Below are positions 1,433-29,703 of a stretch of DNA of 39,060 nt, in pieces (the first letter of the stretch is position 1; the number at the start of each line of letters is the position of its first letter). The stretch is taken from positions 76,120-115,179 of the forward strand of contig JACRDP010000011.1 of the NCBI GenBank assembly GCA_016212855.1, given 5' to 3'. The position numbers were made by a program, and so were the translations under genes. The notes under the pieces are model-generated. The model had not been told where the DNA came from, ran no database searches, and saw nothing but the letters and a program-made list of their open reading frames with translations. The DNA comes from Elusimicrobiota bacterium. Its GTDB lineage: Bacteria; Elusimicrobiota; Elusimicrobia; UBA1565; UBA9628.

Positions 1433-1442
1433 GTTAACATCG

Positions 1443-1460: not shown

Positions 1461-1505
1461 TCAGAGCGTCAAAATCCCGGCCGCCGCTCCAAGCGCCCGA
1501 GATGG

Positions 1506-1544
1506 GTTATCCACAATAGTTCAGCGCTGAACTTTCCGGATAAC
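1506..1544. other. Palindrome AGTTCAGCGCTGAACT framed by inverted GTTATCC/GGATAAC arms
   Basis: The 16-base perfect palindrome at 1518-1533 is flanked by GTTATCC (1506-1512) and GGATAAC (1538-1544), which are exact inverted repeats. The left arm continues into TTATCCACA (1507-1515), identical to the classical DnaA box. It lies 17 bases downstream of the stop codon of the minus-strand gene 1562-2266. A second site of the same plan is at 13123-13184. It could be a protein-binding site, a terminator-like hairpin or a small dispersed repeat; the sequence alone does not decide. Confidence 0.55.
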
Positions 1545-1561
1545 GTCAGGGAACCGCCGCG

Positions 1562-2266: not shown

Positions 2267-2279
2267 CGGACGGCTCGCG

Positions 2280-7137: not shown

Positions 7138-7247
7138 GCCCTATGCCGTTATATTAGGAAGAGGGGGTCCAAGGGCCCGCCCCGGGAGGGGCTAAAGAAG
7201 CCCTGATCTTGGGACCTCCGGCCCCCGTCGTTTCCCCCGTGAATGGC

Positions 7248-7253
7248 TACACT
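7248..7253 (+). promoter_or_regulatory. Possible -10 box (TACACT) directly before the protease fusion gene
   Basis: TACACT ends 6 bases before the ATG at 7260, which would place transcription start at or next to the ATG. No convincing -35 is seen. It is weaker than the other leaderless-type sites but has the same position. Confidence 0.3.
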
Positions 7254-7259
7254 GGGATC

Positions 7260-13192: not shown

Positions 13193-14437
13193 TCAGTGAA
13201 GCGGGTAAGAGGCGCCGTCCGCTTCGTGGACGGTCTCGCTAAGCCCGTCCGGCCCGGCCTCGATCGACAGCCAATGGTGAAGCTTGCGCTTGACCGGGCC
13301 CGGGAACAGCGGCGAGCCGCCGCCGCCGGTGAGCACGTACTTCACGCCGCCGCGCTCAAGCACGCCCAGGCCGTGGATGTGGCCCATGTACACGCGCGAA
13401 ACTTTTCGCGCGGACATCAGCATCATGAACTCGACGGCTCCTTCTTTAAAGCCCCCCGCCCCCTTGAAGCGCCCCCAATCCGTCCACTCCGAGAGGGGCG
13501 CCGGCGGGATGTGGGTGAAGACGACGGTCGGCGTTTTACCGTCGAGGACCGAGGACAGCCAGTCGAGCTGGGGCTTCGTGATCCGCCCCGCGCTCGAATC
13601 CACGACGACGAACCGCCAGCCGCCGCGTTCGAAGACGTAGTTCGGCGAACCGAAGGTGGCCTGGTACACGACGGAGTTGGTGACCCCGTGCGGCTTGAAG
13701 CGGTCGTGGTTGCCCAGGACGGTCAGATACGGCGCACGCAGGCCCGACGCGACGAGCTCGCGGAGGAAGGACCAGAAGTTGAGGACGGTGCCGCGACTGA
13801 CCATGTCGCCGAGCTGAAGGATGAAGTCCGGCGAGGAGACGTTCGCCCGCGAGAGCAGGCGCCAGAACACGCCCGGCTCATTGAAAAGCTTGCGCGAGAT
13901 CCAAAAGCGGCCGGGCTCGGCGTCGCCGATCACCGCGAATTTGACCGTGGACCCCGCCGGCTTGGCCGCGAGCTTGGCGAGCTGCTCGTCCGTGCGCCAA
14001 GGCCGGGCGTGCTTCTGCAGAACGCCCAGGACGCCCGGCCGCTGAGGCGGGGCCGGAGCCACGACGAGATTTCCGCGGCCGACGGCTTCTTCGATCGAGG
14101 CGTGCGGCGCCCGGCCGTCCCACAGTTCGAGCTTCGCGGGAATCGGCGTCGCCGCGCCGCCGGGAGCGACGGCGTGGGCCAGGCCGGTCGCGGCGACGAG
14201 GGCTTTGGCCGCCTCGATGTGGGCGGGCGTGACGTCCGGAGCGGGAACGCCCAACACCCGCACGCTCAGCGCCGCGGGCGTCAGCGGCGAGAATTCGAGA
14301 GAAGGCGCCGACATCAGCGGCGCTATCGCGGAAGGCACGACGGCCGGCGCGGAAGGCGCGGCCCGGAAAGACGTCACCTGCGAAAAAGCCGCGCCGGCGA
14401 TCCAGGCGAGCATCGCCGGCGCGTATCCGACTATCAT
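13193..14437 (-). CDS. Secreted-type calcineurin-like metallophosphoesterase
   Basis: 414 residues from the ATG at 14437 (an ATG at 14413 is also possible). A short hydrophobic start (MLAWIAGAAFSQ) looks like a signal sequence and is followed by an Ala/Pro-rich stretch. Phosphoesterase motifs from the first ATG: FAVIGDAEPG (Asp172; the usual DxH is DxE here), LQLGDMVSRG (Asp211), LGNHD (Asn243, His244), FTHIPP (His309) and GHIHG (His353, His355). These ligands bind two metal ions and hydrolyse phosphoesters; substrates range from nucleotides to phospholipids and proteins. The gene starts 13 bases after the MoxR stop and is in the same operon as the Bat fusion. The DxE variant may change the first metal site. 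Confidence 0.85.
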   Translation of the reverse strand: MIVGYAPAMLAWIAGAAFSQVTSFRAAPSAPAVVPSAIAPLMSAPSLEFSPLTPAALSVRVLGVPAPDVTPAHIEAAKALVAATGLAHAVAPGGAATPIPAKLELWDGRAPHASIEEAVGRGNLVVAPAPPQRPGVLGVLQKHARPWRTDEQLAKLAAKPAGSTVKFAVIGDAEPGRFWISRKLFNEPGVFWRLLSRANVSSPDFILQLGDMVSRGTVLNFWSFLRELVASGLRAPYLTVLGNHDRFKPHGVTNSVVYQATFGSPNYVFERGGWRFVVVDSSAGRITKPQLDWLSSVLDGKTPTVVFTHIPPAPLSEWTDWGRFKGAGGFKEGAVEFMMLMSARKVSRVYMGHIHGLGVLERGGVKYVLTGGGGSPLFPGPVKRKLHHWLSIEAGPDGLSETVHEADGASYPLH

Positions 14438-14450
14438 GGTGTCGTAATGT

Positions 14451-15917
14451 TTACGGCTTGACCAAACGAGCGGCCGTCGGAACACGGGGGCGAGGCACCG
14501 GAACCTTCGCCAAGATGCTGTCGATGACCATGTCCGTGGTCATGTTGTTCGCCTGGAAGCTGAGCACGATGCGGTGGCGCAGCACGCGCTTGGCGACCGC
14601 GCGGACGTCTTCGGGACCGACCCACGCGCGGCCTTCCATGAGCGCGTTGATCTTCGCGGACTTGAGCAGGAAGATCGCCGCGCGCGGGGAGGCGCCGTCG
14701 GTGATGACGTCCTTGGCGGCGACGCCGTACTGCGTCGGGTTGTGGGTCGCCTCGACGAGGTTGAGGATGTAGTCCTGCACGGACTCATCGACGTAAACCT
14801 GCTCGGCGACCTTGCGCATCTCGACCATTTCGTCGAGTGAGGTGATTTTCCCCGCCTTCGGTTGGTTGTCTTTCGTGCTGAAGCGGTTCATGATCGTTTT
14901 AAGCTCGCTCATGGCCGGGCGGGGGACCAAAACTTTGAACATGAAGCGGTCCTGCTGCGCTTCGGGGAGGCGGTAAACGCCTTCCTGCTCAATGGGGTTC
15001 TGCGTGGCGAGGACCATGAAGGGCTTGGGCAGCTCGAGCGTGTTGCGCCCGATGGTGCTGCGGCCTTCGGCCATCGCCTCGAGGAGCGCGGCCTGGGTCT
15101 TCGGCATCATGCGGTTGATTTCGTCGACAAGCAATATATTCGTGAAGACAGGGCCTTTCTCCAACTTGATGGCTTTCTGGCCGGTGGCGGGATCTTCTTG
15201 GAGGATCTCGGCGCCCAGAAGGTCGCTCGGCAGCTTGTCGGGCGTGCCCTGCACGCGCTGGAACTGGCCCTCGACCGCGTCGGAGAAGGCCTTGACCGTC
15301 TGCGTCTTGGCGACGCCGGGGACGCCTTCAAGAAGAACGTGCTCGGAGGCGATCATCGCGTTAATGATGGAGCCGATCATCTCTTCCTGGCCGACGATGA
15401 CCTTGGCGATCTCGGCGCGGATCTTGGCGATGATCGCGGCCTTCTCGGTGACGGCCTGCGCCGTTTCGGCGGAAGCGCCGGAGGCGAGAGCGGACGGAGC
15501 CTCGGCGACGGAGGCCGCGGACCGCTCGCCGGTCAGCGCGAGTTCGAGCGCGGTGCCCGCGCCGCGCGAGTCGGCGGCGGAGGCTTTGCCGAAGTCGGGC
15601 AGAGCGGCCACGGCCGCGTTGACGGCGACCATGCGCGATATAGCGGAAAAAGCTTCCGCGCGCAGCGCGGGAGCCGGGGTCGCGACGAGCGCGCTCGGAG
15701 CAAGCGCGGGAGTCAGGGACAGGGCCGCGGGGCCGAACGCGGGAGCCGCGAGCGGGGCGCCGAGGCCTGAGCCGATCGTCGGGACGATCGCGGCGGAGCC
15801 GCCGGGGACCGCGACGCGGCCGGTGACGGTCTGCGCTGAGGACGCGAGGGGCGTGAACGCCATCGTGGCGGCCAGACCGAGTTTCGCGAGCTTCGAGAGG
15901 CAGGGGACATTCTTCAT
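14451..15917 (-). CDS. moxR: MoxR-type AAA+ ATPase with signal-peptide-like N-terminal extension
   Basis: 488 residues. The C-terminal ~330 residues are a standard MoxR ATPase: VIVGQEEMIGSIINAM, Walker A GVPGVAKT at 198-205, Walker B ILLVDEINRM (Asp265, Glu266), ALLEAMAEGRSTIG, and ATQNPIEQEGVYRLPEAQQD. MoxR proteins act as chaperones that insert metals or remodel VWA-domain partners. Unusual: residues 1-29 look like a signal peptide (LAATMAFTPLASSAQ) and ~30-155 are an Ala/Ser/Pro-rich linker. The start is supported by a strong AAGGAG 4 bases upstream, so the extension is probably translated. The gene follows the Bat fusion gene by 8 bases, its natural partner. Confidence 0.92.
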   Translation of the reverse strand: MKNVPCLSKLAKLGLAATMAFTPLASSAQTVTGRVAVPGGSAAIVPTIGSGLGAPLAAPAFGPAALSLTPALAPSALVATPAPALRAEAFSAISRMVAVNAAVAALPDFGKASAADSRGAGTALELALTGERSAASVAEAPSALASGASAETAQAVTEKAAIIAKIRAEIAKVIVGQEEMIGSIINAMIASEHVLLEGVPGVAKTQTVKAFSDAVEGQFQRVQGTPDKLPSDLLGAEILQEDPATGQKAIKLEKGPVFTNILLVDEINRMMPKTQAALLEAMAEGRSTIGRNTLELPKPFMVLATQNPIEQEGVYRLPEAQQDRFMFKVLVPRPAMSELKTIMNRFSTKDNQPKAGKITSLDEMVEMRKVAEQVYVDESVQDYILNLVEATHNPTQYGVAAKDVITDGASPRAAIFLLKSAKINALMEGRAWVGPEDVRAVAKRVLRHRIVLSFQANNMTTDMVIDSILAKVPVPRPRVPTAARLVKP

Positions 15918-15921
15918 AACG

Positions 15922-15927
15922 CTCCTT
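15922..15927 (-). promoter_or_regulatory. Shine-Dalgarno AAGGAG fixing the moxR start
   Basis: AAGGAG on the minus strand overlaps the TAA stop of the Bat fusion gene and ends 4 bases before the ATG at 15917. It supports the long, signal-bearing form of MoxR and coupled translation. Confidence 0.75.
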
Positions 15928-18900
15928 AGGGCTTGAACGGCTGCTTGGCTTTGGGATGGAAGCTCTGCTCGAGAGTCTCGAGCGGGTCTCCCTCGGTGGA
16001 AATCGAAATCGGCGTGATGTGAGAGGCTTCAAAAGCGGCTTCGACGGCGGCCTCGCGGCGCGAGACGTTCGAGGCGGCCTCGGCGCGGCCGGCGCGCGAC
16101 GAGGTGTCGAGCATGCGCGTCACGCCGGTCTCGGCGTCGACGACGGGCAGAAGGCCCACGTCGGGCAGCGGGCTCAGCTCGGCGGGGTCGGTCACGCGGA
16201 TGGCGCGCACGTCGTGGCGCGCGGCGAGCGAGCCGAGCGCGTCCTTGAAGTCGGGAGCGATGAAGTCGGAGAGCACCGCGACCATGGAGCGCGCGCCGAG
16301 CAGCTTGCCCGCGGTCATCAGGCCGGGCTTGAGGTCGGTGGACGTGCCCGAAGGCTCGGCCTTGAGCATGGCGTCGATGATGGTCATGGCGTGGCGCGAG
16401 CCGCCGCGCGCGGGGAAGACCTGCTCGACGCGGTCGGAGATGAAGACGGCGCCGACGCGGATGGTGGAGTGGGCGGCGGCCAGGGCGAGCACCGCGGCGG
16501 CGTCCTCGATGGCGGTGCGCTTGTCCGCGCCGCGCGTGCCGAAGCGGCCGGAGCGGGAGACGTCGATGACGAGCATGAGCGGCATGTCGCGCTCGAGCTC
16601 GAATTTCTTGACGAAGAGCTCGTCCTTCTTCGCGCTGGTCTTCCAGTCGACGTCGCGGCGGTCCTCGCCGGCGTAGGGCCGGGCCTCGGCGAAGTCCGTT
16701 CCCCCCGCGCCGATGAAGCGGGAGCGGAAAGCGCCGCCGTTGACGGCGGTGGCCATGCGGCGGGCGACGAGCTCGATGCGGCGGTGGCGAGAGAGGATGA
16801 CGCCCGGGATCGCCTCGCGGGCTTCGGGCTCGGAAGAAACGTCTTCTTTGGACGCGAGCAGCTTCCAGATCAGGTAGGCCGAAGCCAGGCCGAGGACGGT
16901 GAAGAGCATCCACGGCGCGAGCGCGGGAAGCGCGGCGGTCAGCATGAGCGGGGCGAAGCCGTGGAGCTTCTTGGGCGCGTCGAAGCCGGCGAGGGCCTCG
17001 TCGGCGGCGGCGATGGCGTCGCGGAGGATTTCCTTCTCGTCGTCCTCGAGAGCTTTCGCCGTGCCGTCGCTCTCCCAGCCCTGACCGGAGTCGAGCGTGG
17101 CCTTCAGCCAGGCGCGGATGGCGGCGACTTCGACGCGGGTGTAGGCCTGCTGATGGTCGCCGACCGAGGTGCCGGCGTTTTGGTCCATGAAGCCCTTTTC
17201 CTTGAGCTTATCGTTGAACACCGAGCCCGGGAACTTCGCGTAGCCGGCCTGGAGGGCGGGATTGAGGATCTCGGCGGCGGCGTCGGCGGGCGAGTCGCCC
17301 GGCGTGACGCCCGCGGCGACACCCATCGTCTCGAGGGCCGGCAGGACGGAGCGCGCGCGGGCGACGGCGGCTTTCTGAGCGGCGTTGAGCGGCTTGCCGC
17401 TCGCCTGGGCCTTCGCGGCGGCGGCGTTGACGGCCTTGAGCAGCGCCGCGTAGTGGCGCAGCTTGAACTCGGAGCGCCAGGCGTACTCGCTCTCGCGCAG
17501 GCCGGAGCGCGTGATCGCCTTCTTGAAGGAGTCGCCGAAGGCCGCTTCGCCCTGCTCGGCGAGCGCGAGGATGGTGAGGTCGGCTTCCTTCTTGGCGGCG
17601 TCCTTGAGCGAAGGCGTGGTCTTGAGCGCGTCGGCGAGCGCGGCGGTCGCCTTGGCCTCATCGGAAGAGCCGCGCAGGACGTCGCGCACGCGGATGAGGA
17701 CGCCGCCGGCGTTGGCCGTGTCCACGCCGCGGGCGGCGAGCTTGATCAAGGTCTCCTGGGCGGACAGCGCGAAGGCGTGGTCGCGCGGGCGCGCCTCGAC
17801 GGCGAACGCCAGGCGCGCCATGGCCAGGTTTTCCTCGCCGGGGCGGAGCACGGAATCGAGCAAGGACGCGGAGACCGTGGCCGCCGGGCCGCCGAGCTTG
17901 GCGATGGCCGCGTCGACGCGGTCGAGGGCCTTGGCGAGATAAATCTTCTCATCCCAAGTCAGCGGCTTGCGGGCGGCGTTGCCGTCCCAGCCCTGGCCGG
18001 ACAGGACGATCGCCTTGAGCCAGGCGCGGATGGCCTGCGCTTCGGCCAAGGTGTAGCTCTGCTGATAGTCGGCCATCGTGTTGCCCTTGCCGGGCATCAG
18101 GTTGGAGGCGCGCAGGGCTTCGTTGAACGAAGCGCCGGAGAACAGGCGGTAGCCCTCGAGCAAGGTCCCGTTGATCTTGTCGGCGGCGATCTCCGCCGGC
18201 GAGTCGCCCGAGGGAGCGCCCGCGGCGGCGGCGAGGCTCTCGAGCCCGGCCAAGGTCTTGACGGAGCCGAGCGCCGCCGTCTGCTCGGGCTTGAGCGGGC
18301 CGCCGGCCTTGGCCTTGTCGGCGGCGGTCGTGATCGCCTCCGCCGTGGCGCGGTAGTGGCGCAGCTTGAGGTCCGAGCGCCAGCCGTAGGTGCCTTCTCG
18401 CACACCCGCGGCGACGAGCTCGTCTTTCAGGTTCTGGACGCTGAAGGCCTTCTCCGCCGCTTCGGCGATCTTGATCATGCCGGCGTTGGCCCGCGCGCGC
18501 GCCGCCGGGGCGAGGGCCGCGCCGTTGGGGCCCTTGAGCGCGACGGAGAGCGAGGCGAGGGCGGCGGCCTCGCGCTCGGTGCCGGCGACCACGCCGAGAA
18601 TCTGGGTGATGACCTGGCCCGCGTCGGCGGCGTCCACCGGGCCCTTGGCGAGCTTCTCGATCAGGATCTTCTCGGCGGCGAGCGCGAACTCGGCGTCCTT
18701 GGGGTGCGCGGTGATCTCGAGGGAAAGCTTGGCCAAGGACAGCGACTCCAAGTTCGCCGTGGCCAGCGCCGGGGCCTCGGGGAAGTTCTTGAGGCGCGCG
18801 GCCTGGACCTTGTCGAGTATGTTGACCAGGTACAGCTTCTCGGACCAGGTCAGGTCGCGGGGCTTACCTTCATAGTCCCAGCCCTTGCCCGAGGCCACGA

Positions 18901-21900
18901 TCCCGGCCAGGAGGCCGTGCAGCTGGGCGAGCTGGTCGGCGCTGAGCGATTCGGGGTAGGCGAGCGTGCCGGAGTAGTCGCCGACGGACGGCGCCAGGCC
19001 GTTCTCGCGCAGGACGCGCAGGAAAGCGTGGTTGGTGAACGCGGCCTCGCCGGCGCGCAGGTCGGGCAGGAGCTGCTCCGCGGCGATCTCGCCGGCCGAG
19101 CCCCCTTGGAGCATGCCCGCCTTGACGCCGGTCTCGAAAGCCTTCTCGAGCGTGGGCTCGACGCGGTCGAGCAGCTCGCGCAGGGCGGCGTTCTCCTTGG
19201 TCGGCTCACCGGCCAAAGGCGCGCCCATCTCCGCGATGGCCTTGCCGAGCGCCTCGAGGTGGGCGAGCTTGTACGCGTCGCGGTAATTGCTCTGAGTGAC
19301 ACTCGAGCCGCCGCCGCGTCCGCCGAACCAGCCGCCGTGGCCGTGGTAGTCGTCGTACTCGTCGCCGTAGCCGCCGTAGGAGTTCTGCGTGTCGGGCAGG
19401 ACGACGCCGTCCTTGATCAGGCGCTCGTGCAGGCCGGGGATGAGCTTCTCCGCATCTTGGATCAGAGCGGTCGTTGCCTTGGTCACGAAATAGCGGGCCG
19501 CGCCGGAGAGCGGCGCGGGCGCGTTGCCGTCGCCCTGCATGCGGTCGGCGATATTCAGGAGCATCGCGACCATGGACGGCGGCGCCTGGACTTCCTGGTC
19601 GGGCGGCGTCTGCGCGTAGATCGCGGCGCGCACGCCGTCCAGGCGCCGGGCGTTGGTGAGCGAGACGTCGAGGAAGGCCTTGGCCTTGACCAGGTCGGCC
19701 TCGGTGACGTTCGGCTCGGCCAGGCGGCGGAAGGCGAAGGACGCCGTCCACAGCTGGAGCATGGGATCGTTGGCGTGCTTGGCCTGGACCACGAGGAGGT
19801 TGTCGTAGAACTTTTTGCCGTCGTCGCGGGACAGGTGGGCGTACAGGATGCCGGCCGCCGCCTGCTGGACCTGCTTGTTCGGGCTCTTGAGCACGCGGAA
19901 CATCTGGGTGATCGCCTTCTCGTTGCCGGACTCGACGCCGAGCACCACGAGCTTGACGAGCAGGCGGGCCGAGGCCTCGTCGGAGCGGGACGTCGCGATG
20001 AGCTGGTCCATCGACTCCCACACCGCGTCGTTGTCGCGCTCGATCAGGGTCAAGAGCATGATGCTCTCGCCCTTGCCGGTCAGCGGCAGGACGCCGGCGC
20101 GGCGGAAGATCGCGATGAGGATGTTGTCGGCCTTGGGATCGGGAGACTCGCGGAGGATGGTCAGCGCGCGCTCGAAATCCGAGCCCGCGGTCTTGGGCGA
20201 CTCGGTCCAACGTTTAAGGGCCGGGAGGACTTGTTCCGGAATGCGCGAGTCCACGTAGCGGTCGGTGAAGATGAACAGGTCCTCGGAGTAGAACAGCTTC
20301 GTCGACATCTCGGCGGCGACGCGCTGCTCCTCCTGGAACTTGACGGTGCCGATGGAGGACACCGCGGTGAGGCCGATCATTAAGGAGAGAATCGCGACCG
20401 TGCCGCCGCGCTTGACCCGCGCCCAGAGACCGAGGGGTTTGGGCGCCACCCACGCGCCCGCTTCGAAAGCGAGGGGTTGCCCGGCGGCGGCGGCCTCGAG
20501 CGCGGCGACGCGCTCGCGCGCGACGCTGTGGTCCATCCAAGAGATGTCGGCCTTGCGAGCGGCGATCCGGTCGGTGATCGGCTTGAGCGGCTCCAGGCGC
20601 GTCTTGCTCGTGCGGCGCAGAGCGCTGAGGATCTTCTCGAGCGTCTCGGGCGCGGCGCCGGAGAGGTACACGGCGGTGAGCTTCTCGCGCCACAGCGCCT
20701 CGTCGTGCGCGGCGACCGTGATCAAGGTGTCGCGCAGCGACTCCTTGCTCTCCTGCCAGCCTTTGACGAAGTGAGCGAGACGGCGCTCGTCGGCCTCGCG
20801 CAGATCGTAAAGATGAATCAGGTCCTTCGAAACGCCCTTCTCGACCGCGCCGTGCCAGTTCTGCCAGGTCTCGCGGATGCGCCGGGTGACGGCCCCGCCG
20901 GTCCACGAGTCGGCGGCGAGGTAGCCCGCGACGGCGGTCGCGAGCAGAACGAAGGGCAGAATCTGCGGCCAGGCGCCGAGCGGAATCAACGCCATGCCCA
21001 TCAGGGCCCCGCCCTTGCCTGTCGTCTTGGGCTTGTCCTTCGCCTCGGGCTTCACGGACGCCGACGCGCGCTTGAGCAAAGAACGGCCGGGCAGGAGCAG
21101 ATCGAGCAGGAGCAGCGCCAATGCGGGCCAGAGGAGCCACACGCCGACCGGGCGCGGCGACTTGATCGAGTCGCCCTTGTGGCCCTTCTCGAGGCGGGAC
21201 ACTTCGCCCAAAATGTTGTCGATCGAGGTCTTGCCGTCGGCGCGGAAGTAGGCGCCGCCGGTGCGCTCGGCCAGCTGGCGCAGGGGCGCCTCGTTCAAGC
21301 GCGTGATCGCGGGAGCGCCGGTCTTGCTGTCGATGATGTACTCGGTGCCGGTCCCGTCGGCGGTGGGCACCTTGATCTTGGTGCCCTCGGGCTTGCCCAC
21401 GCCGATGGCGTACACGGTCACCCGGTGCTCGGCGGCGGCGGCGATCGCGGCGGCGAGCTCCTTATCGTCCACGTCGCCGTCGGAGATGACGATCAAAATG
21501 CGCTGACGGTCCCCGAGCTTCTTCGCGGTTTCGAAATGGTTCGCCGAGAACTTGATCGCCGAGGCGAGGTCGGAGCCTTCATTAAGTCCGCGCGCTTCCA
21601 CATCAAGCCGATTGATTTTAAATTCGAAGTTGCCGTAGTCGATCGAAATCGGCGACGCGGTGCGAGACTGGCCGGCGAAAACGATCAGGCCGACGCGGTC
21701 GGTGCCCTGCAGGCGCGTGATGAAATCATTCAGCTCCTTCTGCGTGCGCTCCATTCGCCCGTCCTCGGCGTACACCATGGAGTGGGAGCCGTCCACCGTG
21801 ACGACGATGTCCTTGCCGCCGAAGTTGACGCGCTCGTCGGTCATCCCGCCGCGCGGGTCGCCGGCGGCGAGGCCCAACAGGCCGGCCGCGGCCAAGGCGA

Positions 21901-24900
21901 TCGCGGACTTACCCAGGAAGCGGCGCGCCCCCCACCAGGACTTGAACGTCTTGGGCGCGGTGCCGGGAGAAAGTTTCTTCGCGGCGTCCATGCGCTTCTT
22001 CAAACCGTACGCGAGCAGCAGCGCCAAAACCGGGAGACCGATGCCGACGGCCCACAGGAACGCCGTCGAAGAGAACACCAGGCCGTGACCCGCCATCGCC
22101 AGCGGCAGCGCCGCCATGCCCCAGACCCCGGAGCCCTTGCGCGTGATGCCCTTGCGCGCCTCGCCCTTCTCCTTGCCTTCCTGCTCGCCCAGCGCCTCGC
22201 CGAGCTTGTCCGCCCCTTTATCGGGATTGGGCTTCACTTCGCCGGGCTTGGGTTTGCCGTCGCCCGGTTTACCGTCGCCGGGCTTGCCGTCGCCGGGCTT
22301 CCCGTCGCCGGGTTTGCCGTCGCCCGGTTTGCCGTCGCCGGGCTTGCCGTCGCCGGGCTTGCCGTCGCCCGGCTTGCCCTTCTGCTTGCCGGGCTGGCCC
22401 TTCTTCGAATCCTTGCCCTGCTTGCCTTCCTTCTGCTCCTGCTCCTTCTGCGCCTGCTTGAGCGCCTCGAGGTTCCACTTCGCGTCCATGTTGGACGCGT
22501 CGCGGCGCAGGGCCTCCTTGTAGAGTTCGACGGCCTTCTCCGCGTCGCCGGCGGCCAAGGCGGAGTTGCCGAGGTTGAAAATGGTCTGGGACTGCTTCTT
22601 CGCATCCTGCGTCAGCGACAGGTACTTCTGCCACGCGGCCTCGGCCTTCGCCGTCTCTCCCAGCCGGAGATACGAGTCGGCCATGTTGAAGTAAATCTCG
22701 GGAACGTCGGGATGCCGCTCGATCGCCTCGCCGTACTTCTTGAGCGCCTCGGCGAAACGGCCCTGATTGTAAAGCTTGTTTCCCTCGATGACTTCCTCGG
22801 GCACCTTCTCCGTCGGCGAGCCCGTCGTCGGGCGCGGGTCGTTGACCTGGGCCGTCATCTCGATCGCGACGGGGTTCCGGGTGCCGAGAATCTCCATCAT
22901 CGGCACCTGCGTTCCGCTGAGGCCCATGACCAAGGCCATCCCGTACAACGTGCGCAGGCGGGTGTTCGCGAGCAGCAGTTCGCCGCCGAGCATCAGGAAC
23001 GCGAGGAGCGCGAGCAGGCTGGTGTAATCCTTGATCGACACGCTCGACACGATCTTGGCCGGGCTCTTTTCCAGGCGCGAGATCTCGAGCAAAACCGAGC
23101 GCATGCCGTCGGCGTCGCCGGCGCGGTAGAACTTGGCTCCGGTCTTCTCGGCCACGGTGCGCAACGTCGCTTCGTTAAATCCTTCGTTGGGGCCCGCGAT
23201 ACCCACGCCGTACACCTTCACGCCGAGCTGGGCGGCGATATCGGCGGCTTCCTCGGGCTTGATGCCGGCGTTCGAATCTCCGTCCGTGAAAATCACGACG
23301 ATCTTGGCCCGCTCGGGCTGCAGGATCTTCGCCATCAGGTCCGGGTACTGCTTGGCGTAGGCCAGAGCCGCGGACAGGCCCTGGTCGCGCAGCAGCTTCT
23401 GGACCTCGAGTGCGCGCGGGTCGGCCTTGCCGTCGAGATCAAGGGCGTTCAGCTCCAAGAAGTGGGCGATCGCCGTCAGCATGGACTTGCCGATCGCGGT
23501 CGAGCCGGTGGTCTGGAGCTCCTTTAAGTGAGAGATCAGGGCGTCGTAGTCGGTCGTCAGCTTCACGTCTAAGTACGAGTTGTCCGAGAAGGTCACCATG
23601 CCGACGCGGTTCTCGGTGCCTCTTCGCTGCTCCTCGACGTAGCCCTTCACGGCCTCGCGCACGCCCTCGAGCTTGGCGCCGCTCATCGAGCCGGACAAAT
23701 CGATCGAGACCATGGTGTCGGTCGACGGAATAAAAGTTTCCGAGCGCTGAGTGCCGATCATGGGGCGCGCGAGCGCGACCAGGATCAGGCCGACGGCGGC
23801 CAGGCGCAGGACGCGGGGCAGGCCCGCGAAGCGCTCGCGCAACGTGCGCTTGGCGGGCGTCTGCGCGGCCGACGACAAGGCGAAGCGCTCGGTCTTGGCC
23901 TTCGACGCGCGCCACGTCCACAGCACGTAGGCCGCGTACGGGATCAGCAGGGCCAAAACCCAGGGGCTGCCGAAGGTCAAACCGGCGGCTCCGGGGAGCA
24001 AGGCCAGCGGCATGAGCCCGTTGAGTCCGCCGTTCTTGGGCTTGGCCTCTTCCTTGCCGGCCTTGCCGGCCACGCTCTCCACGAGCGCCTCCAAGCGCGC
24101 GAGCATGCGGCCGCGCTCGGTGACGTCCTTCTCGTTACCGGAGAATCGCGCGACCTCGGCCTGGGCGGCCAAGCGCGCGGCCACTTCGGACTGGCCGTCG
24201 GCGTAGAAAGACTTGGCCAAATCCTTGTGGAACGTGCGGGCGTCGCGGGCGGCCTTGGGCATGCCGGCGAAATCCACCATGAAGCCGGTGACGAGGTCCT
24301 GGTAGCGGGCGTAGAAAGACTTCGTGTCGAGATTTTCGGATTCCGCCTTCAGGCGCTCGATCTCGGCCTCGGTGGAGGCGAGCAAGGAGATGCGGTTGGC
24401 GTCGAGCTTGGGGTACAGCTTGCGCATCGCGACCAGGCGCTTCACGCCGACGAGCAAGAGCAATCCGAGCGGGATCGCGGCGAGCCACATCCAGTTCGGG
24501 CCGTTGCCGCGCTGCACGCCGACGATGTCGCGCAGGCCCTTCTTCTTCCAGTCGGCGGTCAACGTCGGCTTGACCTCGAGCGTCGTCTTGGGCAAAACGA
24601 TCTCGATGCCTTCGGGGTACTGCGCGATCTCGCCGACGGTCACGACGGCGATGCCGCCGTCAAGGGTCAAGGTCCCGGTGCCGAAGGGGATCGCTTCGTA
24701 GGTGACGGTCTTGGACTCGCCGGGAGCCAAGGTGATGGGCTGTTCCGCCTCTTTACCTTGGATCTCGAGGTCGGCGGGCACGGAACCCTGCAGGCCTTGG
24801 CGCAGATTCGTCAGCGTGATGGGCTTGTCGGACGTGTTCTTGATCGTGAAGGTCAGGTGGACGCGCTCGCCGACGGTCACGCCCTGGCGGTCGATGCTCG

Positions 24901-25705
24901 CTTCCGCCTGAATCGGCCGGGGCAGCTCGACGCGGGCCTCGACGGTGTCGCTCGCCGCCGGGTTGGCCGGGGGCGGCGCGACCTGGGCGCCGTTCTGCGC
25001 CTGCTGGGCAGCCTGGGCCTGCTTGATGGCCTCCTCAATCTGCTTCTTCAGCGCCTCGGGGATATTCTGTCCGCCCTTCTTGAGCGGAGCCTGCTGGGCG
25101 ACGGGCGGCGGGCCCTGGTGAGGCACGGTCTGGGCCTGCGCGGCGTTCTGCGAGAGCATCATGCCGGCGGACAACGTCAAAATCGCGAGTCCCTTCTTCA
25201 GCGCGCGGCCGATGCCGCCGAACACGGGCGTCTCGAGCTCCGCAACCTTCTTGGCGCTGGAGCCGTCGAACATCGCGCCGGTCTGCGCCATCTTCTCGGG
25301 GGCGCTCGCGGCGGGCATCGCAGCGGTCAGAGCGGTGGGCATCGCTTCGGCGGCCTTCGCGGCGGCGGCCGCGGGCTGAGCTACGGCGGCCTGGGCGCCG
25401 ACGGCGGCAGGCACGGCGACGGAGAGCGCTCCGACGGGAATGGCCCTTGCCTCGGGCGTGATCGCGGGCGCGGACAAAGTCAGCGCGGGACCGGCCAGCA
25501 CCGACGGATTCAGAGAGGGAATCGGGGAATTCAGGGTCGCGGCGTTGATCGCGGGGACGACGCGTCCTGCGGCGCCGGCTTCAGCAGACGCGCCGGCTCC
25601 GATGGACTGGGCGGCGGCGTTGTACGCGGGGTAGCCCGGGGCGCTCGCGACGATGAGCAGCGAGAGGAGGGCCGACAGCGCGCGGCTCAGGGGGAAGCGC
25701 CTCAT
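15926..25705 (-). CDS. Giant Bat (aerotolerance) fusion: BatD-like, BatA VWA, BatC TPR, BatB VWA, helical repeats, DUF58
   Basis: 3259 residues from the ATG at 25705 (a TTG four codons upstream is less likely). Order: signal peptide to ~35; Ala/Pro linker; second signal-like helix ~168-193 ending AQAQ; BatD-like Ig-type region from ~254 with a membrane helix ~403-425; BatA-type membrane segments and VWA domain (MIDAS DLSGS, Asp669); TPR region ~977-1076 (BatC); Gly/Lys/Pro/Asp repeat 1111-1150; BatB membrane segments and VWA (DGSHS, Asp1305); more membrane segments; helix ~1769-1787; HEAT-like region ~1800-2010; Gly/Tyr/His-rich patch ~2106-2134; tandem ~300-residue repeats ~2137-2906; membrane helix ~2916-2949; DUF58 with DVSRSG (Asp3048). 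These are normally separate genes next to moxR, which here follows immediately. Likely an inner-membrane scaffold remodelled by MoxR. Confidence 0.9.
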   Translation of the reverse strand: MRRFPLSRALSALLSLLIVASAPGYPAYNAAAQSIGAGASAEAGAAGRVVPAINAATLNSPIPSLNPSVLAGPALTLSAPAITPEARAIPVGALSVAVPAAVGAQAAVAQPAAAAAKAAEAMPTALTAAMPAASAPEKMAQTGAMFDGSSAKKVAELETPVFGGIGRALKKGLAILTLSAGMMLSQNAAQAQTVPHQGPPPVAQQAPLKKGGQNIPEALKKQIEEAIKQAQAAQQAQNGAQVAPPPANPAASDTVEARVELPRPIQAEASIDRQGVTVGERVHLTFTIKNTSDKPITLTNLRQGLQGSVPADLEIQGKEAEQPITLAPGESKTVTYEAIPFGTGTLTLDGGIAVVTVGEIAQYPEGIEIVLPKTTLEVKPTLTADWKKKGLRDIVGVQRGNGPNWMWLAAIPLGLLLLVGVKRLVAMRKLYPKLDANRISLLASTEAEIERLKAESENLDTKSFYARYQDLVTGFMVDFAGMPKAARDARTFHKDLAKSFYADGQSEVAARLAAQAEVARFSGNEKDVTERGRMLARLEALVESVAGKAGKEEAKPKNGGLNGLMPLALLPGAAGLTFGSPWVLALLIPYAAYVLWTWRASKAKTERFALSSAAQTPAKRTLRERFAGLPRVLRLAAVGLILVALARPMIGTQRSETFIPSTDTMVSIDLSGSMSGAKLEGVREAVKGYVEEQRRGTENRVGMVTFSDNSYLDVKLTTDYDALISHLKELQTTGSTAIGKSMLTAIAHFLELNALDLDGKADPRALEVQKLLRDQGLSAALAYAKQYPDLMAKILQPERAKIVVIFTDGDSNAGIKPEEAADIAAQLGVKVYGVGIAGPNEGFNEATLRTVAEKTGAKFYRAGDADGMRSVLLEISRLEKSPAKIVSSVSIKDYTSLLALLAFLMLGGELLLANTRLRTLYGMALVMGLSGTQVPMMEILGTRNPVAIEMTAQVNDPRPTTGSPTEKVPEEVIEGNKLYNQGRFAEALKKYGEAIERHPDVPEIYFNMADSYLRLGETAKAEAAWQKYLSLTQDAKKQSQTIFNLGNSALAAGDAEKAVELYKEALRRDASNMDAKWNLEALKQAQKEQEQKEGKQGKDSKKGQPGKQKGKPGDGKPGDGKPGDGKPGDGKPGDGKPGDGKPGDGKPGDGKPKPGEVKPNPDKGADKLGEALGEQEGKEKGEARKGITRKGSGVWGMAALPLAMAGHGLVFSSTAFLWAVGIGLPVLALLLAYGLKKRMDAAKKLSPGTAPKTFKSWWGARRFLGKSAIALAAAGLLGLAAGDPRGGMTDERVNFGGKDIVVTVDGSHSMVYAEDGRMERTQKELNDFITRLQGTDRVGLIVFAGQSRTASPISIDYGNFEFKINRLDVEARGLNEGSDLASAIKFSANHFETAKKLGDRQRILIVISDGDVDDKELAAAIAAAAEHRVTVYAIGVGKPEGTKIKVPTADGTGTEYIIDSKTGAPAITRLNEAPLRQLAERTGGAYFRADGKTSIDNILGEVSRLEKGHKGDSIKSPRPVGVWLLWPALALLLLDLLLPGRSLLKRASASVKPEAKDKPKTTGKGGALMGMALIPLGAWPQILPFVLLATAVAGYLAADSWTGGAVTRRIRETWQNWHGAVEKGVSKDLIHLYDLREADERRLAHFVKGWQESKESLRDTLITVAAHDEALWREKLTAVYLSGAAPETLEKILSALRRTSKTRLEPLKPITDRIAARKADISWMDHSVARERVAALEAAAAGQPLAFEAGAWVAPKPLGLWARVKRGGTVAILSLMIGLTAVSSIGTVKFQEEQRVAAEMSTKLFYSEDLFIFTDRYVDSRIPEQVLPALKRWTESPKTAGSDFERALTILRESPDPKADNILIAIFRRAGVLPLTGKGESIMLLTLIERDNDAVWESMDQLIATSRSDEASARLLVKLVVLGVESGNEKAITQMFRVLKSPNKQVQQAAAGILYAHLSRDDGKKFYDNLLVVQAKHANDPMLQLWTASFAFRRLAEPNVTEADLVKAKAFLDVSLTNARRLDGVRAAIYAQTPPDQEVQAPPSMVAMLLNIADRMQGDGNAPAPLSGAARYFVTKATTALIQDAEKLIPGLHERLIKDGVVLPDTQNSYGGYGDEYDDYHGHGGWFGGRGGGSSVTQSNYRDAYKLAHLEALGKAIAEMGAPLAGEPTKENAALRELLDRVEPTLEKAFETGVKAGMLQGGSAGEIAAEQLLPDLRAGEAAFTNHAFLRVLRENGLAPSVGDYSGTLAYPESLSADQLAQLHGLLAGIVASGKGWDYEGKPRDLTWSEKLYLVNILDKVQAARLKNFPEAPALATANLESLSLAKLSLEITAHPKDAEFALAAEKILIEKLAKGPVDAADAGQVITQILGVVAGTEREAAALASLSVALKGPNGAALAPAARARANAGMIKIAEAAEKAFSVQNLKDELVAAGVREGTYGWRSDLKLRHYRATAEAITTAADKAKAGGPLKPEQTAALGSVKTLAGLESLAAAAGAPSGDSPAEIAADKINGTLLEGYRLFSGASFNEALRASNLMPGKGNTMADYQQSYTLAEAQAIRAWLKAIVLSGQGWDGNAARKPLTWDEKIYLAKALDRVDAAIAKLGGPAATVSASLLDSVLRPGEENLAMARLAFAVEARPRDHAFALSAQETLIKLAARGVDTANAGGVLIRVRDVLRGSSDEAKATAALADALKTTPSLKDAAKKEADLTILALAEQGEAAFGDSFKKAITRSGLRESEYAWRSEFKLRHYAALLKAVNAAAAKAQASGKPLNAAQKAAVARARSVLPALETMGVAAGVTPGDSPADAAAEILNPALQAGYAKFPGSVFNDKLKEKGFMDQNAGTSVGDHQQAYTRVEVAAIRAWLKATLDSGQGWESDGTAKALEDDEKEILRDAIAAADEALAGFDAPKKLHGFAPLMLTAALPALAPWMLFTVLGLASAYLIWKLLASKEDVSSEPEAREAIPGVILSRHRRIELVARRMATAVNGGAFRSRFIGAGGTDFAEARPYAGEDRRDVDWKTSAKKDELFVKKFELERDMPLMLVIDVSRSGRFGTRGADKRTAIEDAAAVLALAAAHSTIRVGAVFISDRVEQVFPARGGSRHAMTIIDAMLKAEPSGTSTDLKPGLMTAGKLLGARSMVAVLSDFIAPDFKDALGSLAARHDVRAIRVTDPAELSPLPDVGLLPVVDAETGVTRMLDTSSRAGRAEAASNVSRREAAVEAAFEASHITPISISTEGDPLETLEQSFHPKAKQPFKP
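16990..19295 (-). repeat. Coding tandem repeat, ~300 residues per unit, two full and one partial
   Basis: Within the Bat fusion gene, the phrase YGWRSDLKLRHY recurs as YAWRSEFKLRHY and, more diverged, as NYRDAYKLAHL, at about 18352-18393, 17451-17492 and 19258-19295. The phrase GDSPAEIAADKI recurs as GDSPADAAAEIL and GGSAGEIAAEQL. Both series have a period of about 900 bases. The third unit stops about half way, before the last membrane helix. No named family is recognised. Confidence 0.75.
22256..22375 (-). repeat. Eight tandem 15-base coding repeats (GKPGD-type)
   Basis: Eight consecutive 15-base units, differing only at a few positions, encode a Lys-Pro-Gly-Asp-Gly repeat at residues 1111-1150 between the TPR region and the second VWA part of the Bat fusion. 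It is a charged flexible linker and a likely spot for copy-number change. Confidence 0.9.
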
Positions 25706-25735
25706 TTGTTGATCCAAATCAATAACATCAATTGG

Positions 25736-26151: not shown

Positions 26152-27369
26152 ATGATTACCCACCTACAGATCGCATCTTTTAAATCTCTCGAAAATGTCG
26201 AACTTGAACTAGGCCAAGTTAATGTTTTCATTGGGGCCAACGGAAGTGGCAAGAGCAACCTTTTAGAAGCAATCGGCGTCCTGGGCGCAGCAGCTTTCGG
26301 CCGCGTCGATGATGAATCGCTGCTAAGGCGCGGTGTCCGCCCCGGCGTGCCCAAGCTCTACAAATCAGCATTCCCACACAAACCTCACGAAAGACGTCCC
26401 CATATTTTTTTCGGAGCGCGGAAGGAAGACGCAGCGTACGAAGTTGCTTTATTCAATCCGTTGAACGATCCTAAACCGGCATGGCGTTACATGTCCGAGA
26501 ATTTCGAAGGTCCAACGGGAAAAATCGTCGGGCGTTCACCATTCAAGAAGCAGGAGCTTGGTCCCGGAAAAGGATTAAACCCTGAACAGGGTTATGCGGC
26601 ACTTAAGTCCGTCGAACTTAAACCTGGGGACTCAGCTCTCGATCTGTTGGACGGCCTCCGCAACTACTGTATTTACTCTGCCAACACTGCAACACTCCGC
26701 GGACTTGCACCTGATCAACAGCAGCGCGAACCCGTCGGCCTTTCCGGCGGTCGCCTTCCCGAAGCTGTCTTAGAACTACTGCAATCGCGCAGGAAAGAAG
26801 GCCACGCTTGGCTAAACGACAAGGTCGCAGAGATTCTGCCCCTTATTGATTGGGCGAAAACATTTGGCTCAGGGCCTTCCAGTGCGATGCCGCTGTCACC
26901 GTCTGCTGCGGCATCAAAGTATGTGGTGCGCTTTACGGATCGATATATGGCAGACAAGCGCAACATTCTCACCGGATACGACGCAAGTGAGGGCGCACTA
27001 TACGTTCTTTTTGCGGCGGTCATCGCCCTCCACCCGAAATCCCCAAGCTTCTTTGCCGTAGACAATCTTGATCAAGCAATAAATCCCCGTCTCGCGAAGC
27101 GGCTCACGCAGGCTTTTTGTAGTTGGATTTTAGATTCCCAAACAAGTCGGCAGGTTATTCTAACTGCACACAACGCGGCAGTGCTTGATGGCCTTCCTCT
27201 AAAAGACGACCGAGTCCGACTCTTTTCTGTTGATCGCGACAATCTCGGGCACACGGTAGCGCGCCGAATTATATTGAGTGAAAAGCTGCTCGCTAAGGCC
27301 GCCCAAGGATGGACTTTATCCCGTCTCTGGATGAATGGATTAATTGGTGGCGTCTCCACTACCCTCTGA
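26152..27369 (+). CDS. SMC/RecF-like AAA ATPase, probable defence component
   Basis: 405 residues. The start LQIASFKSLENVELELG is the typical opening of AAA_15/AAA_21 (OLD/RecF-like) ATPases; Walker A is GANGSGKS at 28-35. A signature-like GLSGGRLPEAV is near 200. Walker B is FFAVDNLDQAINPRL, with DN in place of the common DE, followed by the switch segment VILTAHNAAVLDGLPL. Such ATPases work with nucleases or toxins in anti-phage systems (OLD, Gabija, PARIS, Septu, RloAB). The next gene overlaps by 26 bases and encodes a TOPRIM-like protein, so this looks like a two-gene OLD/PARIS-style unit. No fused nuclease domain is visible in this protein. Specific system not identified. Confidence 0.82.
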   Translation: MITHLQIASFKSLENVELELGQVNVFIGANGSGKSNLLEAIGVLGAAAFGRVDDESLLRRGVRPGVPKLYKSAFPHKPHERRPHIFFGARKEDAAYEVALFNPLNDPKPAWRYMSENFEGPTGKIVGRSPFKKQELGPGKGLNPEQGYAALKSVELKPGDSALDLLDGLRNYCIYSANTATLRGLAPDQQQREPVGLSGGRLPEAVLELLQSRRKEGHAWLNDKVAEILPLIDWAKTFGSGPSSAMPLSPSAAASKYVVRFTDRYMADKRNILTGYDASEGALYVLFAAVIALHPKSPSFFAVDNLDQAINPRLAKRLTQAFCSWILDSQTSRQVILTAHNAAVLDGLPLKDDRVRLFSVDRDNLGHTVARRIILSEKLLAKAAQGWTLSRLWMNGLIGGVSTTL

Positions 27370-28051
27370 GCCGCTAAGAATTGCGCTCGTGGGAGAAGGC
27401 CCCACGGATAGGGTCGTAATTGAAGCAGCCATCACCAAGCTGTTGGGTGACCGGCACTTTATCCTCCAACAGCTCCAACCTGAGGATTCACTTGCCTTTG
27501 GATCGCTGGGAACAGGCTGGGGTGGCGTTTACCATTGGTGCGCCCAATCTATTAGTCGCGCAGGGGGCTCGCTTCGTAGTGACCCGCTTTTTGACACTTT
27601 CGATCTGCTCATATTGCATCTCGATGGGGATGTGGCCAACAAACAATATGCTGATTACGGCATTATAGACACGGCAAACGACCTCCCCTGTGATCGGCCC
27701 TGTCCACCCGCATCCGCATCAACGAACAAACTCCGTGAAATTCTTCTCCGATGGGGTGGTGAAACCGATTTGCCACCTAAAACCGTTCTTTGCACACCAT
27801 CGAAAAATTCTGAAACTTGGGTATTAACGGCATTATTTCCATCAGATAGCGCCGTCGCATCTGGAAACACAGAGTGTTTTTCAGATCCGGAGGCTCGCCT
27901 TAGCTTGCAGCCCAAAAAAAATAGAATCCGTAAATCCGTATCTGACTACCGGAACTGTCTTCGTGACATCAGCAATGCTTGGCCAGTTGTACGTTCCAAC
28001 TTAAGTGAGGCCGAGCGATTTAGCATCGATTTTCTCGCTGCCATACCATAA
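27344..28051 (+). CDS. TOPRIM-like/DUF4276-like partner of the AAA ATPase
   Basis: 235 residues if started at TTG 27344; GTG at 27347 is an equal alternative, and no ATG is suitably placed. The N-terminal strand RIALVGEGPTDRVVIEAAI has the conserved Glu of TOPRIM domains (EGxTD), and FDLLILHLDGDVANK supplies the DxD acidic pair. This is the pattern of TOPRIM nucleases paired with AAA_15 ATPases (OLD family, PARIS AriB, and DUF4276 or RloB proteins). The rest (KTVLCTPSKNSETWVLTAL) resembles the usual second half of such proteins, where a Trp-containing Glu motif follows. It overlaps the ATPase gene by 26 bases, implying fixed stoichiometry. Nuclease activity is inferred. Confidence 0.7.
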   Translation: MVASPLPSEPLRIALVGEGPTDRVVIEAAITKLLGDRHFILQQLQPEDSLAFGSLGTGWGGVYHWCAQSISRAGGSLRSDPLFDTFDLLILHLDGDVANKQYADYGIIDTANDLPCDRPCPPASASTNKLREILLRWGGETDLPPKTVLCTPSKNSETWVLTALFPSDSAVASGNTECFSDPEARLSLQPKKNRIRKSVSDYRNCLRDISNAWPVVRSNLSEAERFSIDFLAAIP

Positions 28052-28106
28052 GTTAAGAGTTGTCGAAATTGTGGGCGGGGGGTGTCGAACCATTGGATTG
28101 GCCAGC

Positions 28107-28141
28107 CGGCGGCTCGGTGAGGAATAGACCCGTAGCCGCCG
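28107..28141. other. Stem-loop between the ATPase/TOPRIM pair and the next gene
   Basis: CGGCGGCT (28107-28114) and AGCCGCCG (28134-28141) form an 8-base-pair stem with a 19-base loop. There is no T-run. It may end the ATPase/TOPRIM transcript or be structural RNA; nothing else supports a choice. Confidence 0.35.
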
Positions 28142-28171
28142 CTGATCATCCTCATCGCTAGCCATACCTAC

Positions 28172-28885
28172 ATGAGATACCCATCGAAATTAAATCTTTC
28201 TCGTAGTGCTCGGGCCGCGCTGATAGGCGGTAGCATCGGCTTGTTGTACGGCACTGCTTTTGTAGTCAACAAGGCGATGCAAGATATCCGTTCATCAAGC
28301 ATGGAAGAGCAGGTGCGCTCGAAATACACAGATATGAACGGCGGGGATTATATTTGCAAAAGCGCCTATTTCGAAAGCGAATGCCTTGCGCGCGTAAGCA
28401 AGTCCCGACAGTGCGTAGAAAGCATTCAAAACCTGATTGGAAAGCCCCTTAAATACCCACGAGTCGTGGAAGGTCTAGCAGTACCGTCTCTGGCCGGCTT
28501 AGAACAATCCGTCCTCTCTGCTAAATTCTGTGAAATCACGCCCCCAGTTTCTCTATTTAGCTGGTTTGCCAATGAATCAGCAGAAACTATTCTTGCCCCT
28601 CTTCTGGCTTTCCTCCTGGGTGGGATGATCGTTGGTGTTCCGTGTCTGCTAATTCTTTGGATTCTTGATTATCCACATCTAGGTTGGCGACGCCTCATTG
28701 TGGTATCAGCTCCCGTTATCGGAGTAATTGGAGGGCTGCACCATCATTCGCAGAGAGAGTCCTTTCTAGAGTCCATTTGGTTTGGTTTGACGATCACCGT
28801 AATGAGTGCGATTGTTCTCGTCGTAGGCCGAGAAGCATTCCTGTGGGTAAGAGACGGATTTCACAGCGAGGCCAAGAATGGTTAA
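28172..28885 (+). CDS. Multipass membrane protein of unknown function in the island
   Basis: 237 residues. Hydrophobic segments: AALIGGSIGLLYGTAFVV near residue 15-32, ILAPLLAFLLGGMIVGVPCL around 145-165 running into LLILWIL, LIVVSAPVIGVIGGL near 178-195, and IWFGLTITVMSAIVLVVG near 205-225. The segment between the first and second helices (about 110 residues) is polar, with cysteines (YICKSAYFESECLARV, RQCVESI), and is probably extracytoplasmic. No known domain is recognised. No strong ribosome-binding site precedes the ATG. It could be a membrane effector or immunity protein of the defence island; that is a guess from context. Confidence 0.6.
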   Translation: MRYPSKLNLSRSARAALIGGSIGLLYGTAFVVNKAMQDIRSSSMEEQVRSKYTDMNGGDYICKSAYFESECLARVSKSRQCVESIQNLIGKPLKYPRVVEGLAVPSLAGLEQSVLSAKFCEITPPVSLFSWFANESAETILAPLLAFLLGGMIVGVPCLLILWILDYPHLGWRRLIVVSAPVIGVIGGLHHHSQRESFLESIWFGLTITVMSAIVLVVGREAFLWVRDGFHSEAKNG

Positions 28886-28965
28886 CCATTCTGCTGACCG
28901 TCGCCTTATTGGGTGGGTAATTTAAGCGGGGGCAGCGGATCGCCTGCGCTAGATATCCCGATTCC

Positions 28966-29700: not shown

Positions 29701-29703
29701 CTT

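Follow-up and report, generated by a model that had tools for sequence, protein, structure and literature searches.

Fusions among bat genes have been reported previously. For example, batB and batC are joined in Leptospira biflexa and, according to the excerpts of that report, bat genes have fused repeatedly in spirochaetes and Francisella (PMC3557215), and Borrelia BB0170 is described as a fusion of BatD, TPR and SH3 parts (PMC5700661). These published cases comprise two or three modules, and the excerpts mention neither a VWA-VWA-DUF58 chain nor a helical-repeat part. Here, we describe a giant gene in a 39,060-nucleotide stretch of an Elusimicrobiota genome (assembly GCA_016212855.1, contig JACRDP010000011.1, positions 76,120 to 115,179; the whole stretch is hereafter called the window). 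It joins several Bat-like modules in one chain next to a moxR gene, moxR2. We lean towards reading the giant as a lineage-specific paralogue of the MoxR/Bat complex, consisting of one inner-membrane chain with a dedicated MoxR.

The giant shares with the MoxR-Bat operon its BatA, BatB, TPR, DUF58 and MoxR modules, MIDAS (metal ion-dependent adhesion site) motifs and membrane segments, but differs in being one chain with another module order, in lacking the long BatD and BatE, in its added helical-repeat part, in coexisting as an additional copy with the ordinary operon, and in the signal-like N-terminus of its MoxR. It resembles NorQ/NorD in pairing a MoxR hexamer with a MIDAS VWA adaptor, although NorQ/NorD is, in the excerpted account, a two-protein pair with one VWA domain (PMC9976466). 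MoxR-vWA ternary conflict systems likewise combine MoxR, vWA and variable parts; the excerpts define them by VMAP, iSTAND, FtsH or beta-propeller components (PMC7159879), none of which Pfam detected in the giant (neighbouring genes were only sampled). Very large proteins are also described from the same corner of the tree, in Omnitrophota and Elusimicrobia. These reach 85,800 residues and carry transmembrane helices and carbohydrate-degradation domains, with no Bat modules mentioned in the excerpts (PMC12057145). Other VWA force transducers are described, again in excerpt, in PMC12204202. A search of the open-licence PubMed Central literature, with most subscription papers and bioRxiv outside its scope, returned no Bat chain of such extent and nothing on MoxR in Elusimicrobiota. 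The function of Bat/MoxR and the assembly of its parts are still open questions. A naturally occurring single chain reveals at once which of five modules adjoin one another and in what relative numbers they occur, and it is a candidate construct for cryo-electron microscopy.

One reading frame conserved among Elusimicrobiota

A preliminary description of this DNA had proposed a single frame of about 3,260 residues at 15926-25705. This was borne out on the minus strand, a detail that the description had not given: the frame opens at an ATG (3,259 residues) or at a TTG slightly upstream (15926-25717, 3,263 residues), and the plus-strand translation of 15926-25705 contains stops. Residues are numbered here from the ATG (alignment A1), and positions in Pfam output, which count from the TTG, are 4 higher. 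The ATG methionine is invariant in all 13 aligned giants. Given the G+C content (0.643 in the window, 0.686 in the giant gene), long open frames on the opposite strand (1,475 and 1,016 residues) are unsurprising and frame length by itself is no proof. Proof that the frame is real rests on its conservation among genomes.

We searched 340 Elusimicrobiota genomes, of which 322 had some match, and took as carriers those with a best E value of <1e-130 (next best, 2e-48). The same architecture, which the preliminary description had suggested looking for in related genomes, is carried by 24 of them: as a complete frame in 13, cut by contig ends in 10 (where fusion is visible only for the part present) and broken in one (G011). 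Each of the 12 other genomes with complete frames has one closed homologous frame, 29-70% identical to the window's giant, and the 13 intact frames span 2,753-3,414 residues. In a search of 58 genomes (own genome counted), the BatA-TPR-BatB stretch was matched somewhere in 57. Ratios of nonsynonymous to synonymous differences per site (pN/pS), computed for five pairs among five giants, were below 1 in all 13 segments (range 0.08-0.88), with 0.16-0.29 for BatA, 0.11-0.32 for TPR, 0.22-0.27 for BatB, 0.19-0.42 for DUF58, 0.10-0.47 for the signal region, 0.52-0.82 for residues 161-200 and 0.60-0.88 for the repeats.

With 13 intact frames from different genomes, conserved order and selection on the segments, the relatives already refute, short of raw reads, the notion that an assembly or annotation artefact joined separate genes, and we give it virtually no credence. 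The giant is nonetheless broken in G011 (L036, CP096137.1), where it was matched in six tblastn pieces with shifting frames, a point that favours an artefact and counts against a single chain; the moxR frame of the same locus is intact. This genome is a single contig rated 83% complete, which is consistent with sequencing indels and no proof of them; decay of the gene is the alternative.

Bat modules within the giant

Tree, profile and motif tests identify the module order as short BatD-like, BatA, BatC (TPR), BatB and DUF58. The DLSGS and DGSHS motifs of two VWA domains, the TPR region and the C-terminal DUF58 with DVSRSG, all named in the preliminary description, are present in the frame, and the three MIDAS-type motifs are invariant in the 13 aligned giants. 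The profile check that it had proposed succeeded in part: DUF58 (186 bits), VWA (124 bits, 3 stretches) and several TPR models scored above the Pfam cut-offs, but BatD (20.4 bits, cut-off 24.1) and the BatA N-terminal family PF07584 (18.1 bits, cut-off 25.9) fell below them. NCBIfam models for Leptospira BatA, BatB and BatC match the correct stretches, below their curated cut-offs.

In a tree of 53 VWA domains with hand-chosen limits (13 giants, 14 ordinary BatA and 13 ordinary BatB), each giant VWA set forms one clade (100/100), and giant VWA1 joins ordinary BatA, apart from both BatB sets (99/97). Loci L049, L052, L053, L059 and L064 contributed neither ordinary domain, L058 no BatA, and L066 and L068 no BatB. 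Giant VWA2 also matches the solved BatB structure 3ibs. By these sequence comparisons, the two VWA domains are orthologues of BatA and BatB. In all 8 giants compared, but in none of 6 ordinary BatA, about 45 residues are inserted into VWA1 between the MIDAS threonine and the later MIDAS aspartate; the insert is modelled as helical (predicted local distance difference test, pLDDT, 80-87 in this block), within an overall poor model (61.5).

The BatD-like N-terminal region that had been proposed stands in a modified form. Residues 255-562 match operon gene X (signal, Ig-like domain, transmembrane segment and helical tail; hhalign 99.4%, 275 columns), and long BatD matches the N-terminal module solely in its tail. 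A long BatD at this position was rejected accordingly, and none was found elsewhere in the giant, with no BatD above the Pfam cut-off and the X-type module instead. BatE (TPR and SH3) was not found either, no SH3 being among the 25 Pfam families listed.

The junctions between modules bear on whether the chain stays whole. It might be translated as a polyprotein and then cleaved at its Ala/Pro-rich, Lys/Gly/Pro-rich and hydrophobic junctions to yield ordinary Bat-like subunits, in which case the working complex would be unfused. Consistent with this, the junction at residues 931-960 varies in length, shares 15-33% identity with that of the window in 11 relatives and is missing in L042, a second signal-like stretch lies at residues 161-200, and pLDDT is <50 in the Lys/Gly/Pro linker and over much of the hydrophobic junctions. 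The Lys/Gly/Pro linker, however, has low pN/pS (0.08-0.26) and is 81-86% identical to the window's in L031-L034, and we regard cleavage as improbable.

A second system beside the ordinary bat operon

Carriers make up 10 of the 19 genomes of the window's genus, 7/25 of the rest of the family, 6/12 of the rest of the order, 1/179 of the rest of the class and 0/105 of the rest of the phylum; those named are Elusimicrobiota or Elusimicrobia metagenome-assembled genomes. The giant is accessory, being absent from six members of the genus with a completeness of at least 90% (G002, G008, G010, G012, G017 and G018).

Ordinary operons of this phylum run MoxR - DUF58 - X - BatA - BatB - TPR - BatD - BatE, with BatB and TPR often fused. 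An ordinary operon, whole or partial, lies elsewhere in 23 of the 24 carriers; 20/24 have a BatB::TPR gene (frame of 447-962 residues), G056 has a long BatD and a TPR part, and in G005 and G013 MoxR-DUF58-X runs into a contig end. None was found in the window's own assembly, which is 73% complete. For 23 of the 24 carriers, the giant is therefore an additional version, and the proposal that the Bat operon has been fused into one fails, the ordinary operon persisting and the module order being different. What survives of the proposal is that Bat modules form one polypeptide beside a dedicated moxR, with two VWA domains orthologous to those of BatA and BatB; long BatD and BatE are missing from the combination.

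An equivalent fusion in other phyla was considered and rejected: at ten loci outside Elusimicrobiota, plus-strand frames over the match reached at most 1,166 residues, and L092 had none of 300 residues (a non-exhaustive scan for two peptide patterns). Records from Kiritimatiellae, Kiritimatiellales and Lentisphaerae (L085-L087) contain DVSRSM within frames of 927-944 residues over the match, which suggests further partial Bat fusions.

A predicted helical-repeat arm with a partly discordant history

The preliminary description named the Bat modules but overlooked residues 1546-2925, about 1,380 residues that are not recognisably Bat and in which no Pfam family has its best stretch. They include three tandem repeats of about 300 residues (R1-R3) that match one another (hhalign R1/R2 99.93% over 230 columns, R2/R3 100%, R1/R3 99.94%); the start of the preceding segment, M2, is not homologous to them by hhalign. 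The idea that M1 or M2 is a diverged X or BatD was rejected (hhalign probability <1%). AlphaFold2 gave a helical model for residues 1790-2620 (pLDDT 85.4; predicted template modelling score, pTM, 0.65) in which R1 and R2 each show a small beta-hairpin close to their end, and where modelled the repeats are predicted to form an alpha-solenoid. A known fold was rejected: Foldseek returned just generic helical-repeat proteins (best E 2.9e-4, TM-scores 0.05-0.21 among the 50 matches listed), and a PDB sequence search with the repeats gave nothing better than E 0.037. Region 2170-2925 varies from 348 to 817 residues in length across the 13 giants; G006 has a short arm, with 348 residues against 756 in the window's giant.

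Identity was profiled along the gene for two pairs. Between L031 and L032, counted per 60-residue block from residue 241, it is 71-98% outside residues 2281-2880 of L031 and 26-70% within them (the Ala/Pro linker near residue 121 is also low, at 53%); by region, it is 91% across BatA-M2, 93% in DUF58 and 53% in segment M3. There, L032 is 76% identical to L033 and 73% to L034, compared with 53% to L031, its nearest kin elsewhere. The approximately unbiased (AU) test rejected L031+L032 in M3 (p 6.5e-52; M3 trees took 8 of the 13 giants) and L032+L033+L034 outside it (p 0.0004). Between L031 and L032, pN rises from 0.01-0.08 (residues 284-2223) to 0.19-0.41 in R2-R3; between L032 and L033, it is 0.11-0.19 in the R2-R3 stretch versus 0.05-0.14 before it. 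We read these patterns as a probable replacement of R2-R3 by a diverged version in the L031 lineage, and the discordant repeats point to a part that may choose the target. Four points weaken this reading: L032+L033 was not rejected outside M3 (p 0.053), the groups for the AU tests were picked after the identities had been seen, the rise in pS is modest (0.17-0.31 to 0.28-0.42 in R2-R3), and no donor was found for the L031 repeats, the nearest M3 being the window's at 54%. Very fast divergence of R2-R3 in the L031 lineage is an alternative that is not fully excluded. From one demonstrated case, we infer that repeated swapping of R2-R3 may be a habit.

Discordant repeats could also mark a system for conflict or recognition, akin to the MoxR-vWA ternary ones, with exchangeable repeats selected by phages or neighbours and unrelated to Bat function. 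The patchy presence of the giant and two defence-model hits adjoining it in this window agree with such a role. No PADLOC model, however, matches the giant or MoxR2 (0 families), and in the giant Pfam shows neither a beta-propeller nor any other family of the third component, and we consider a conflict system quite unlikely.

Proposed membrane topology and the dedicated MoxR

A hydrophobicity scan of the giant gave 13 peaks, of which those at residues 18 and 61 were assigned to the signal and the linker, leaving 11 strong peaks. Double-pass hairpins at residues ~567-597 and ~1556-1598 would put VWA1, TPR, VWA2 and the arm on the outer side of the membrane, with the BatD tail, M1 and DUF58 on the inner side, and this topology is preferred. 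Flanking charges, the ordinary separate genes and Borrelia BB0173, whose VWA is periplasmic by experiment in the excerpted report (PMC5700661), agree with it. A count of single passes would leave the Lys/Arg-rich loops 597-634 and 1234-1262 outside. Among ordinary genes, BatB::TPR has an extra hydrophobic segment ahead of TPR (4/4), as the giant has at residue 928 (11/13), X has a signal and one strong transmembrane segment (2/2), and DUF58 has no transmembrane segment (2/2). By eye, similar Leu/Ala/Pro-rich hydrophobic stretches are seen at four module junctions (residues ~567, 1196, 1556 and 2926), which could be membrane hairpins.

As previously noted, moxR adjoins the giant, starting 8 bases past its stop. 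Of the loci of 12 relatives, 10 have a MoxR frame next to the giant; the L040 contig stops 409 bases past the giant. All 11 partner MoxRs read (the window's and those of 10 relatives) have a hydrophobic signal-like start, a long, mostly Ala/Pro-rich stretch and an AAA+ domain, and retain Walker A, the D-E of Walker B and E-A-[QA]-x-D-R-F (11/11; for L037 an internal Met was taken as the start). In Pfam, MoxR2 scores 48 bits for bpMoxR (cut-off 27) and 184 bits for AAA_3. For ordinary MoxR, 22 of 27 matches have no more than 23 open residues upstream and five (L049, L051, L052, L064 and L148) have 56-471; the upstream parts that were read look Arg/Gly/Pro-rich by eye, without a signal-like start adjoining the gene. 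A further strong hydrophobic segment, judged transmembrane, occurs in the MoxR2 of L038 and L042 only (2.1 and 2.3 on the hydrophobicity scale); in Pro/Gly-rich linkers of the others, peaks of up to 1.9 were judged not to be transmembrane. Searched in its own genome, the MoxR2 N-terminus matched only itself, and a sequence family for Ala/Pro-rich N-termini was rejected on that result.

These N-termini raise the prospect that both proteins, MoxR2 included, are secreted or periplasmic, with the ATPase either working beyond the cytoplasm or serving as a scaffold that needs no ATP. The signal-like starts of 16 giants and 11 MoxR2 speak for it, together with pN/pS of 0.18-0.61 across the MoxR2 signal and linker in 9 of 10 comparisons and similar N-termini on a trypsin-like protease, an endonuclease I, a mechanosensitive channel and a phosphoesterase. 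The tenth comparison (the signal in L036/L034, 24 codons), in contrast, gave 0.99, the active-site motifs of MoxR2 are intact throughout, two relatives have the extra transmembrane segment, and ordinary DUF58 is free of such segments. ATP is not known to occur in the periplasm, and we doubt that the machine is exported. If truly exported, a signal-bearing MoxR would run counter to what is generally expected of AAA+ ATPases.

A candidate mechanism

Under the paralogue reading that we favour, the short-BatD, BatA, BatC and BatB modules, the new helical-repeat arm and DUF58 would form one inner-membrane polypeptide, with both MIDAS VWA domains, TPR and the arm facing the periplasm and the short-BatD tail, M1 and DUF58 facing the cytoplasm. 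A MoxR ring would dock on DUF58, and the membrane helices would pass the effect of its ATP cycle on to the VWA domains. These may remodel an envelope client selected by the arm; exchange of R2-R3 would alter what the arm recognises. In NorQ/NorD, according to the excerpts, VWA is modelled as plugging the MoxR hexamer and the MIDAS is needed for activity (PMC9976466). By analogy, VWA could plug the MoxR ring and the MIDAS hold the client. Because the same source describes six NorQ to one, possibly two, NorD (PMC9976466), the stoichiometry of one each proposed earlier is unlikely for MoxR; the rigid platform proposed with it finds no support in the Lys/Gly/Pro linker or the poor BatA-TPR-BatB model. 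A bolder version, an envelope-spanning, single-chain, AAA+-driven machine whose exchangeable periplasmic arm sets the target and whose MoxR is itself exported, placing the motor outside the cytoplasm, strikes us as very unlikely.

Several results speak against the paralogue reading. The main conflict is putative export of the AAA+ protein: all 11 MoxR2 starts resemble cleavable export signals, which conflicts with cytoplasmic docking on DUF58, and in just 2/11 (L038 and L042) would a predicted transmembrane segment return the ATPase inside. The 2,443 bases that follow the giant in L044 contain no MoxR. With one pass per peak and a periplasmic start, both VWA domains and TPR would be cytoplasmic and the repeat arm outside, and the preferred topology requires two hairpins, for which flanking charge and the ordinary genes are the sole backing. 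Finally, the structure model of BatA-TPR-BatB is poor (pLDDT 61.5, pTM 0.34).

Gene map and neighbouring genes

Table 1. Features of the giant gene and the genes following it (window positions; residues counted from the ATG)
Feature	Residues	Position	Strand	Basis or remark
Whole giant gene	1-3259	15926..25705	-	ATG 25705, stop 15926-15928; TTG at 25717 possible
Signal-peptide-like N-terminus, conserved P-G motif	1-33	25607..25705	-	P23, G24, A30 invariant; pN/pS 0.10-0.47
Ala/Pro-rich linker	34-160	25226..25606	-	
Second signal-like hydrophobic stretch	161-200	25106..25225	-	From sequence; below averaged threshold of hydrophobicity scan
Short BatD-like module (Ig-like, transmembrane, helical tail)	255-562	24020..24943	-	hhalign to X; PF13584 below cut-off
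BatA module, VWA1 with ~45-residue helical insert	562-930	22916..24022	-	Profiles, tree, model, insert comparison
MIDAS 1 DLSGS (D669, S671, S673; also T736, D808)		23687..23701	-	Invariant in 13 giants
TPR, BatC-like	961-1096	22418..22825	-	Profiles, model
Lys/Gly/Pro-rich linker	1097-1185	22151..22417	-	Sequence
BatB module, VWA2	1186-1545	21071..22150	-	Profiles, tree, match to solved BatB 3ibs
MIDAS 2 DGSHS (D1305, S1307, S1309)		21779..21793	-	Invariant in 13 giants
M1: hydrophobic stretch, non-Pfam segment, transmembrane	1546-1790	20336..21070	-	No match to X or BatD
M2: helical segment, family unassigned	1790-2010	19676..20338	-	hhalign, model
Repeat R1	2010-2310	18776..19678	-	hhalign R1/R2
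Repeat R2, inside discordant-history segment	2311-2610	17876..18775	-	hhalign, AU test, pN/pS
Repeat R3, inside discordant-history segment	2611-2925	16931..17875	-	hhalign, AU test, pN/pS
Hydrophobic segment ahead of DUF58	2926-2960	16826..16930	-	Seen in 13/13
DUF58 domain	2961-3259	15929..16825	-	Pfam 186 bits
MIDAS-type motif DVSRS (D3048, S3050, S3052)		16550..16564	-	Invariant in 13 giants
moxR2, AAA+ ATPase with ~165-residue signal-peptide-like and Ala/Pro-rich N-terminus		14451..15917	-	
Calcineurin-like phosphoesterase downstream, similar kind of N-terminus		13193..14485	-	

On the other side of the giant, the divergent neighbours at 26152-31455 (plus strand) both look defence-like: an AAA_21 ATPase matches PADLOC PDC-M31A (517 bits) and a T5orf172/DUF4041 protein matches PD-Lambda-1 (505 bits). 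A signal peptide followed by an Ala/Pro/Ser/Leu-rich linker recurs on unrelated proteins in the window (7209-9788, plus strand, and 13193-14485, minus strand) and elsewhere in the genome (L126:512-2911, L128:27-1751, L129:14669-16012 and L133:14124-15467). A crude filter for such N-termini passed 6 of 369 sampled open reading frames, the giant included, and missed MoxR2 and the phosphoesterase. In the giants, P-G followed a few residues on by Y, H or W is conserved right after the signal core (residues 22-32, window ~25610-25642), and a similar T-P-G...Y begins the 800-residue open reading frame at L126:512-2911, which is without a Pfam hit.

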